Source of the DNA: Gammaproteobacteria bacterium
Lineage (GTDB): Bacteria > Pseudomonadota > Gammaproteobacteria > DSM-19610
NCBI GenBank assembly: GCA_011374975.1
Contig: DRNU01000152.1
Location: 1-39,622, forward strand
Direction of reading: 5' to 3'
DNA length: 39,622 nt
A model generated the notes under the pieces. The model worked only from the letters and a program-made list of their open reading frames with translations, had not been told where the DNA came from and made no database searches. This document shows positions 27,885 to 38,243 of the stretch, in pieces. Position numbers and translations under genes: made by a program. Position 1 is the stretch's first letter; every line of letters begins with the position of its first letter.

Positions 27885-27911
27885 TAAAGTGCAGGGCCGG
27901 ACAGCCGTTAA
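27885..27911 (+). promoter_or_regulatory. FliA (sigma-28) type promoter of the chemoreceptor gene
   Basis: TAAA (27885-27888), exactly 15 bases, then GCCGTTAA (27904-27911), matching the flagellar sigma-28 consensus TAAA-N15-GCCGATAA at 11 of 12 positions. It is oriented toward the methyl-accepting protein starting at 27957, leaving a leader of about 40 bases that includes the ribosome-binding AGGAG. Strong motif and a fitting target gene. Confidence 0.8.
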
Positions 27912-27956: not shown

Positions 27957-29087
27957 ATGTTTGCATGGTTTGGAAGAACACGCGCAGAGCTGAAAGCTGC
28001 GCAAAGCGAGAACAAAAAACTCAGGGAAGAAATTGCAGGGAAAGATGCCCAGTGCGCGGAACTTGAGCAGCAGCTGGCGCAGGTGTGTGCCGAGTACCAG
28101 ACCGCCGCCCAGGAGACGAAGGTGGCACAGGGGCTGTACCGTAACTTTCACTATTTCGGCGACAGCCTGGTGCAGCTTCAGTCCACGCTGTCCAGCATGG
28201 CTGAAACGCTGGCCAGTGAAAAGCGGGTCGCTGTGGAAGCCTCCCAGGTGTCCGTCACGGCGCGTGAGGGTACGGAAACCATGGTTTCCAACCTCCGGCA
28301 GGTGGTAACCACCGTGGGCGATGCGGTGAGTAATGTCGAGGGCCTCAGCTCACGTGCCGATGCCATCGGCAATATCGTCAGCCTGATCACCGAGATTTCA
28401 GAACAGACTAACCTGCTGGCGCTCAATGCCGCGATCGAGGCTGCGCGGGCCGGTGAACACGGTCGTGGTTTTGCCGTGGTCGCGGAAGAGGTGCGCAATC
28501 TCTCCAAGCGCACCAATGAGGCGACCCAGGAAATTGCCAGCCAGGTGGCCAAGATCCAGGAAGAGACCGGACACACCCGCGACAAAATGCAGACCATGGC
28601 GGAACAGTCCGAACAGCTGCGCGAAATCGGATCCAGTTCCAGATCCGGTATGGGGGCCATACTGAACTTGTCCAAGCAGATGGAGGGCGTTATTTCCGCC
28701 GGGGCGCTGCGCAGCTTCGTGGAACTCGCCAAGACCGACCACCTGGTCTACAAGTTCAACATCTACCAGGTCATGATGGGTGTATCCAGCCTGGGTATAG
28801 ACGACTTTGCCGACCACACGCGTTGCCGGCTTGGCAAGTGGTATTACGAGGGCGAAGGGCTGGGCTGTTTCAGCAAGCTCAGTGGTTACCGTGAACTGGA
28901 AGATCCACACCGTGCGGTGCATCGCCATGCACTGGAAGCGTTGACGCAGCACATGGATGGCAATACGGAAGATGCGTTGCAGGAACTTGAGAATATGGAG
29001 CAGGCCAGCATGGAAGTCCTGCATTGCCTGGAGCAGATGGCGGTGACTGCGGAAGCAGACAGCAGCCTGTTGTGCGTGAACGGCTGA
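27957..29087 (+). CDS. Cytosolic methyl-accepting chemoreceptor with CZB domain
   Basis: A 376-residue chemoreceptor without membrane segments. An N-terminal coiled coil (about 8-60) leads into the MCP signalling hairpin, with the highly conserved tip [32 protein letters not shown] (about 149-180). The C-terminal CZB (chemoreceptor zinc-binding) domain, about 250-345, has [23 protein letters not shown] and [11 protein letters not shown], giving the expected His/Cys zinc ligands. CZB domains are linked to sensing of zinc or hypochlorous acid and to regulation of diguanylate cyclases. The ATG at 27957 follows AGGAG. A sigma-28 promoter drives it, so it belongs to the flagellar/chemotaxis regulon. 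Confidence 0.93.
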
Positions 29088-35660: not shown

Positions 35661-37576
<1,916 letters not shown>

Positions 37577-37803
37577 TCGGGCTGGCCGAGTCTGCCGTGT
37601 CCACCCGTCAGGGTGAGCGGCTGGTGGCTGACCGACAGTCGCCGGAGTCAGCTCCCGTTGCGCCGATATCCCGTCGCAATCTGACAGCGTTTCGACGATT
37701 GCCGGGTTTTGTCGGGCTGTCAGGCTTGCCAGGGACAGGCGCCTTTTGCCCGGAAACATCATAACACTATGTATTTATTAATATTTAAAAATTGTTTCCA
37801 GAG

Positions 37804-37820
37804 TTGGCATCACGCTTGCA
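37804..37820 (+). promoter_or_regulatory. Sigma-54 (-24/-12) promoter
   Basis: TTGGCAT followed by CACGC and TTGCA: the GG (37806-37807) and GC (37818-37819) are separated by exactly 10 bases, as required for sigma-54, and surrounding bases match TGGCAY-N5-TTGCA. An AT-rich stretch (37764-37797) lies just upstream, where a bending protein such as IHF could bind. Transcription would start near 37831. It points into the GGA-rich region that ends in tandem terminators; no gene start lies between. Confidence 0.7.
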
Positions 37821-38011
37821 TTACCAAGGACAAGGAACGGGAAGCGGTAGCCAGGGGATGGCTAAAGATTTCGCCGCACCGACCGCTAGAAGGGATAAGG
37901 TCGGTATTCCCGATCCAGGGATGGATTTTATTGGGACTGCGTCTTGTCAAGGCAGGGCGCATTCCCAAGCAAGACAGGAACAACGTTGTTGTTATGTGAC
38001 TGACTCCTCCG

Positions 38012-38029
38012 ACGCTGAAAAGCGTTTTT
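38012..38029 (+). terminator. Intrinsic terminator 1 of the sRNA
   Basis: ACGCT-GAAA-AGCGT stem with a GNRA tetraloop followed by TTTT. It lies just ahead of a second, stronger terminator, so the two act in tandem on the plus strand. Confidence 0.65.
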
Positions 38030-38031
38030 CG

Positions 38032-38057
38032 CCCCACCGTTTGGTGGGGTTTTTTTT
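38032..38057 (+). terminator. Intrinsic terminator 2 of the sRNA
   Basis: CCCCACC-GTTT-GGTGGGG forms a 7-bp GC-rich stem followed by eight T residues (38050-38057), a textbook rho-independent terminator on the plus strand. The upstream plus-strand region has no protein gene for more than 450 bases, so it most likely ends a non-coding transcript. Confidence 0.9.
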
Positions 38058-38066
38058 GCCGCGGAT

Positions 38067-38243
38067 TTATGCCCCGCTTTCGATCATCTCGAAGTCCGCC
38101 TTGGAAACACCGCAGTCCGGGCATTCCCAGTCTTCCGGGACATCTTCCCAGGCCGTGCCCGGCGCAATGCCTTCCTCGGGCAGCCCTTTGGCCTCATCAT
38201 AGATAAAGCCACACACCACACATTCCCATTTTTTTGTCGCCAT
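38067..38243 (-). CDS. Rubredoxin
   Basis: A 58-residue rubredoxin. The two metal-binding knuckles are C8-V-V-C11 and C41-P-D-C44, binding one iron; the typical [20 protein letters not shown] and [17 protein letters not shown] segments are complete. It is a small cytosolic electron carrier; partners (such as a rubredoxin reductase or a detoxifying oxidoreductase) are not in the window. ATG at 38241-38243, stop TAA at 38067-38069. It is convergent with the predicted sRNA; its own terminator is not evident. A TATAAT -10 is present upstream. Confidence 0.95.

Follow-up and report, generated by a model that had tools for sequence, protein, structure and literature searches.

A predicted flagellar small RNA gene with sigma54 and sigma28 promoter motifs beside hemB in a gammaproteobacterium

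A segment of the plus strand between hemB and a rubredoxin gene (37831–38057) is almost certainly a genuine small RNA (sRNA) gene. When it was compared with related sequences, we observed a conserved gene with two promoter motifs (sigma54 and sigma28) at a preserved spacing, covarying stems, GGA in hairpin loops, and a common 3′ block followed by a terminator. Taken as a whole, the locus is best explained as a dual-promoter sRNA gene of the flagellar regulon, an explanation that we hold with moderate confidence. All positions refer to the window, the whole 39,622-nt stretch of DNA that was analyzed.

Conservation and structure of the locus

The window lies on contig C152 of a 3.3-Mb draft genome (88.8% complete). 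The nearest named relatives are uncultured Gammaproteobacteria labelled Thiogranum or Thiohalobacter, and from these labels the host is taken to be a sulfur oxidizer. Among the 17 genomes of the genus, FliA was found in 15, flagellin in 14, the FleQ domain in all 17, and Hfq in 15; hfq was not found in the present draft, which is 88.8% complete.

Both neighbors of the element are on the minus strand, hemB being divergent and the rubredoxin gene convergent (Table 1). As the initial annotation had stated, there is no coding gene directly upstream on the plus strand, hemB there being on the opposite strand. In relatives, rubredoxin, rubredoxin-reductase-like or hemF genes (named from translations) were found downstream of the sRNA locus. 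A 281-base query recovered the element in 13 of the 17 genus genomes and partially in three more genomes of the family. The four genus genomes with no match are incomplete (71–82%), and FliA exceeds the cut-off in three of these; thus, joint loss of the sRNA and flagella is uninformative.

Table 1. Coordinates of the sRNA gene, its predicted signals and its neighbors in the window
Feature	Position	Strand	Evidence or remark
hemB, divergent neighbor	36503–37519	−	ORF; PF00490 match 36518–37477, E = 1.1e-142; hemB neighbor in many homologous loci
Possible enhancer (activator) site GTCGCAATCTGAC, tentative	37673–37685	+	GTCR-N4-6-YGRC motif
Predicted sigma54 promoter TTGGCATCACGCTTGCA, near-perfect	37804–37820	+	Predicted +1 at ~37831; sole pattern match in the window, 0.02 expected
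Predicted sigma54-driven long sRNA, 227 nt	37831–38057	+	Kept in 13/17 genus genomes; covarying helices; fold z = −5.7
Closing helix around hairpins 1 and 2	37834–37842 / 37908–37916	+	RNAalifold; 3 pairs changed on both sides, 94.6% of cells paired
Hairpin 1, TAGCC-AGGGGAT-GGCTA, candidate CsrA site	37848–37864	+	Loop GGA kept in 14/14
Predicted internal sigma28 (FliA) promoter TAAAGATT-N11-ACCGCTAG (TAAAG-N14-ACCGCTAG)	37863–37889	+	Predicted +1 at ~37896; 12/16 to consensus
Hairpin 2, AAGGGAT in 14-nt loop, candidate CsrA site	37878–37905	+	Stem covaries (helix 3); loop GGA 13/14
Hairpin 3, ATCC-AGGGAT-GGAT, candidate CsrA site	37913–37926	+	Conserved but shallow
Hairpin 4, long central stem	37930–37969	+	8/16 pairs changed on both sides, 97.3% of cells paired
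Invariant block GACTCCTCCGACGCTGAAAAGCG, with anti-Shine-Dalgarno seed CTCCTCC at 38004–38010	38002–38024	+	Identical in all type A copies
Hairpin ACGCT-GAAA-AGCGT, then U run	38012–38029	+	Invariant 14/14
Intrinsic terminator CCCCACC..GGTGGGG + eight U	38032–38057	+	Stem covaries, 2 pairs changed on both sides
Rubredoxin gene, convergent neighbor	38067–38243	−	Read from sequence

The plus strand of the element folded at −95.7 kcal/mol (shuffles, −72 ± 4.2), and none of 200 shuffles folded as well (z = −5.7). Fourteen full-length copies with a GGA-containing body (type A) showed a mean column identity of 74% in the alignment. When a six-helix structure was imposed on it, 96.7% of cells paired (90.8% in shuffles) and 17 pairs were changed on both sides (8.8 in shuffles), values reached by none of 500 shuffles and by no slid control. 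These covariation figures are favorable, since the alignment also supplied the structure and its sequences are related, but the margin is still large. Hairpin 1 is misaligned by MAFFT and was read copy by copy: its stem UAGCC/GGCUA is replaced by AGUC/GACU, AGGC/GCCU, AGCA/UGCU or UUAAG/CUUAA, with GGA in the loop throughout, and three of the 14 stems are weak. Covariation was silent for hairpin 3, because TCCA and GGA.GGA are nearly invariant, and likewise for the 38012–38029 hairpin, because it does not vary at all. The loop of hairpin 4 gains AGGGATG in some relatives. The structured RNA that had been proposed from this sequence was thus confirmed by conservation in the genus, by folding and by covarying stems, and the two tandem terminators said to end it correspond to the two elements with hairpin and U run in Table 1.

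It is highly improbable that the element is a 5′ leader, an untranslated readthrough region or a small-protein gene. Two long plus-strand frames do cross it (37709–37999 and 37792–38202), but they are mechanical; both neighbors are on the opposite strand, the element ends in a terminator, the stems are conserved as RNA, and one block is common to RNAs with different bodies. A protein origin of that conserved block was considered and not supported, given the mechanical nature of the plus-strand frames, the conserved RNA stems and the occurrence of the block in unlike bodies.

Promoter motifs, the 3′ block and its wider family

A sigma54 promoter at 37804–37820 is very probable from its sequence. 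The site was present in all 14 type A copies and also in type B homologs (described below), and its predicted +1 coincides with the start chosen in the initial annotation. Upstream of the −24 element, the motif GTCR-N4-6-YGRC occurred in 11 of the 14 type A copies (1.5 in shuffles). It recalls the FleQ site GTCaNTAAAtTGAC proposed for Pseudomonas aeruginosa, as quoted in PMC6120874. The activator site is tentative, because the motif was chosen by eye from the very sequences in which it was counted, and the sigma54 promoters of fliD lack it.

An internal sigma28 promoter at 37863–37889 is also probable, with slightly less confidence. The sigma28 consensus is TAAAGTTT-N11-GCCGATAA, from which the −10 box ACCGCTAG deviates at three places. 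The genus flagellin genes, including that of this genome, carry TAAAGTTT-N11-NNCGCTAA or a close form at a constant place upstream; thus, a −10 box of the CGCTA form is usual in the genus. Every homologous locus except one (the second copy of genome G001) had a score of 10–15 out of 16 at a fixed place; in the window, scores of at least 12 occurred at 4 of approximately 79,000 positions. The distance between the sigma54 and sigma28 sites was 41–44 bases in type A and 30–33 in type B. The genome-wide count of a strict sigma28 pattern showed no excess over the control; three of its nine matches precede chemoreceptor-like or PilZ-like genes (read from translations).

Two further observations concern flagellar and chemotaxis genes. 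A sigma28-like promoter, TAAAGTGCAGGGCCGGACAGCCGTTAA, lies at 27885–27911, 45 bases upstream of a chemoreceptor-like gene (27957–29087). The flagellin mRNA leaders of the genus (L092, L094–L096, L098 and L100) share a hairpin, GGAAGCGGTAAATACC...GGTATATCCGCTA, the start of which resembles GGGAAGCGGTA of the sRNA.

The 3′ end of the element has a 22-nt block, RCTCCTCCGACGCTGAAAAGCG, made of the anti-Shine-Dalgarno stretch and a hairpin and followed by the terminator, which is common to other gammaproteobacterial families. In exact or one-mismatch pattern searches, on which the family spread rests, the 22-mer was found in 30 stretches of an 84,980-species collection (all gammaproteobacterial among the matches listed) and, with one mismatch (and G at the first base), in 11 of 369 genomes of the class. 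Many of the homologous loci adjoin hemB, BASS-type transporter, hemF or rubredoxin-type genes (names read from translations).

The bodies upstream of the block differ. Type A has the GGA body described above. Type B (for example, in Thiohalobacter thiocyanaticus) has a body of approximately 260 nt, TGGCATGAGTCC...GGGCTCATGCCACAG, and a sigma54 site, whereas type C is approximately 135–155 nt long, with no sigma54 site seen. The sigma28 site was present in types A, B and C. GGA was at or near chance in types B and C, except in locus L054. Seven type B loci (L023, L024, L025, L030, L045, L049 and L052) showed a large conserved body with both sigma54 and sigma28 sites; the type B body matched no Rfam family in the six of these seven loci checked, nor in L017. 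The latter is a second, type B-like copy in G001, with a sigma54 site and no clear sigma28 site; a type A copy in that genome has the same 3′ block, of which one genome can thus carry several copies. In one more family (L151), a sigma28 site and a variant of the block were seen next to hemB. Different bodies in front of a common block suggest that the old part consists of the sigma28-like promoter, the CUCCUCC block and the terminator; judged from this comparison, a single lineage has added the GGA domain.

CUCCUCC is complementary to Shine-Dalgarno sequences. The order seen here, an invariant CU-rich stretch ahead of a hairpin and a U-tailed terminator, reads as the anatomy of an Hfq-dependent translation repressor; the terminator tail has eight U, the seed does not vary, and Hfq is encoded in most of the genus but was not found in this incomplete genome. 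In Burkholderia, unpaired CU-rich stretches of RNAs are predicted to mask ribosome binding sites (PMC5688073). We infer that the RNA probably base pairs with mRNAs through CUCCUCC. The predicted accessibility of this seed differed among forms. In the long type A form it was mostly paired (unpaired probability of 0.02–0.31 in 13 of 14 copies); in the sigma28 form it was predicted to be more open in most species, failing in L004, L010, L012 and L013; in types B and C the predicted unpaired probability was 0.36–0.94.

GGA hairpins and CsrA

The initial annotation had described at least eight GGA motifs in approximately 150 nt and had read the element as resembling CsrB/RsmZ. Eight GGA were indeed counted in 37831–37980. 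Their number alone was within chance (5.4 in dinucleotide shuffles, P = 0.09), and the bare count was rejected as evidence. The CsrA-like motif ANGGAY was above chance (3 versus 0.5 in shuffles, P = 0.012). The three GGA-loop hairpins were present with the loops quoted (hairpins 1 to 3), and the loop GGA was conserved in nearly all species. The CsrA consensus from SELEX is RUACARGGAUGU, its GGA sitting in a short hairpin loop (PMC7652899), and the type A arrangement is, by its sequence, what CsrA sites are expected to look like. A csrA gene, on which the annotation had made its proposal depend, was found as four matches in this genome and was present in 15 of the 17 genus genomes. Two conditions named as refuting the proposal, lost conservation of loop GGA in relatives and a genome lacking csrA, thus did not apply. 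Several genus genomes had two to four CsrA-family matches; in this genome (G000) they lie on contigs C48, C71 and C198, and one of the four is a broken fragment.

Rfam gave less to that reading. The search with the CsrB, CsrC, RsmX, RsmY and PrrB/RsmZ models returned no match at the gathering score and none, even weak, up to E = 10, and nothing was above cut-off for any known Rfam family. The exact GacA box TGTAAG-N6-CTTACA occurred once in each of two genus genomes and not at the locus; no convincing Gac-type Rsm RNA was found near these two boxes. With no Csr family match and no exact GacA box, the element was not filed as CsrB/RsmZ. What stood of the original assignment was the conserved sRNA locus, the GGA in loops and the presence of csrA; the family membership did not stand, and the GGA-rich part is restricted to one lineage and lies mostly in the sigma54 form.

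We therefore consider it improbable that the element is an RNA of the CsrB/RsmZ type, with CsrA titration by GGA hairpins as its main job and a 3′ block serving only as terminator or stability structure. The persistence of loop GGA through changes of the stem, the ANGGAY excess and the four csrA matches agree with such a role, but no Csr family or nearby exact GacA box was found, the GGA sites are far fewer than in classical CsrB, and the GGA domain is missing from most type B and C homologs whereas CUCCUCC is invariant in all. In the type A lineage, the element may nevertheless work like CsrB/RsmZ.

The GGATGGA of hairpin 3 has an alternative partner, the CUCCUCC seed. The GGA motifs could be internal decoys that pair with the seed of the same RNA, rather than CsrA sites, and keep the sigma54 form inactive. 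Both RNAalifold and the single-sequence fold pair GGATGGA with UCCUCC, in line with the mostly paired seed of the long form. Pairing between the seed and hairpin 3 exceeded 0.5 in only 4 of the 14 copies, however, and as the pairs never vary, covariation is silent on them. The GGA of loops 1 and 2 was predicted to be unpaired in most type A copies, so self-pairing does not account for it and another reason is needed; CsrA binding would be one. We consider the decoy explanation quite unlikely; as to whether the long form binds CsrA, the chances seem evenly balanced.

Proposed mechanism and comparison with known systems

The conserved core (sigma28-like promoter, CUCCUCC block and terminator) points to a flagellar base-pairing sRNA. 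The product common to the family would be a sigma28 (FliA) transcript, approximately 160 nt here, that exposes CUCCUCC. This short RNA, probably bound by Hfq, would cover the Shine-Dalgarno sequences of its target mRNAs and so repress them. In the Thiogranum-like genus, transcription from the upstream sigma54 promoter would add approximately 65 nt of 5′ sequence, predicted to fold into GGA-loop hairpins that plausibly bind and titrate CsrA, and the long RNA would tend to hide the seed. The mostly paired seed and the open loop GGA of the long form led us to propose that the sigma54 form acts as a sponge and the sigma28 form as a base-pairing RNA.

A stronger version is a promoter-switched riboregulator. 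The long sigma54 RNA would sponge CsrA, its seed being locked meanwhile by the GGA-rich 5′ part of the same molecule, and the short sigma28 RNA would be made later with the seed free; CsrA binding could itself free the seed. If true, one gene would give two signals at successive stages of flagellar assembly. We regard this version as speculative and unlikely to hold in full.

In position and seed, the annotated RNA closest to the element is the Burkholderiales anti-hemB RNA (RF02837), and it is possible, though rather doubtful, that the dual-promoter sRNA is a distant ortholog of it that gained flagellar promoters. RF02837 loci (ncS04 in Burkholderia cenocepacia) are also divergent from hemB in many genomes and have CTCCTCC next to a hairpin and a terminator; the gene order in B. 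cenocepacia is <- -> <- (PMC4603805), and ncS04 is reported to bind Hfq (PMC5688073). The RF02837 RNAs, however, are 80–105 nt long, have CTCCTCC inside the hairpin loop, whereas here the motif precedes the hairpin, and showed no GGA hairpin domain in the RNAs read. Of 30 hemB loci read across the class, only this window and L151 had such a block. Kinship by score was rejected: the element scored 23.1 bits (cut-off, 49.5), which is noise level in a 398-genome search in which the model gave 24–26 bits to many matches in unrelated genomes. RF02837 was retained for its position. An unsystematic reading of the RF02837 loci showed no sigma28 or sigma54 sites. The anti-hemB RNA can be multicopy; genome G597 has six RF02837 matches at several places, four of them above cut-off. 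Shared ancestry would be compatible with a dual-promoter flagellar sRNA.

Another comparison is with the toxic small RNA/double-hairpin RNAs of Betaproteobacteria (RF02278), which gave a weak match at the 3′ end of the element (22.1 bits, below the 50-bit cut-off). We know of no GGA domain in RF02278. The likeness is in an unpaired, CU-rich stretch with a predicted role in masking ribosome binding sites (PMC5688073); in B. cenocepacia these RNAs are approximately 57–92 nt long (PMC4603805).

The CsrB, CsrC, RsmX, RsmY and RsmZ RNAs resemble the element in having GGA in the loops of short hairpins, an intergenic position, a U-tailed terminator and csrA in the genome. They differ in that the element has fewer GGA and an invariant anti-Shine-Dalgarno block, and in place of a GacA box carries sigma54 and sigma28 promoter motifs. 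McaS and GadY of Escherichia coli are base-pairing sRNAs that also bind CsrA (PMC7652899). The element is proposed here to combine the same two features, base pairing and at least two GGA sites, but it has no sequence relation to McaS or GadY by Rfam. To our knowledge, their promoters also differ from those of this sRNA.

UhpU, MotR, FliX and FlgO of E. coli are sigma28-dependent sRNAs (PMC10578931). At the level of motifs, the element shares with this class a FliA promoter in front of the predicted transcript, and expression through the flagellar sigma factor and base pairing with mRNAs are both proposed here. Those four come from untranslated gene regions, whereas the element stands between genes, has a terminator of its own and adds a predicted sigma54 promoter. 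Knowledge of flagellar-sigma-factor sRNAs comes mainly from E. coli and Campylobacter. If the proposal is true, an intergenic sigma28 sRNA exists in several families of sulfur-oxidizing Gammaproteobacteria and may join three layers of control (sigma54, sigma28 and CsrA) in 230 bases. The RCTCCTCCGACGCTGAAAAGCG block offers a sequence handle for an sRNA family that Rfam lacks, and prompts one to ask whether the little-understood anti-hemB RNA of Burkholderia is a relative. The kinds of RNA compared are themselves known; what is new is the probable combination, in one sRNA gene, of a sigma28 promoter with a second, sigma54 promoter and a GGA domain particular to one lineage.
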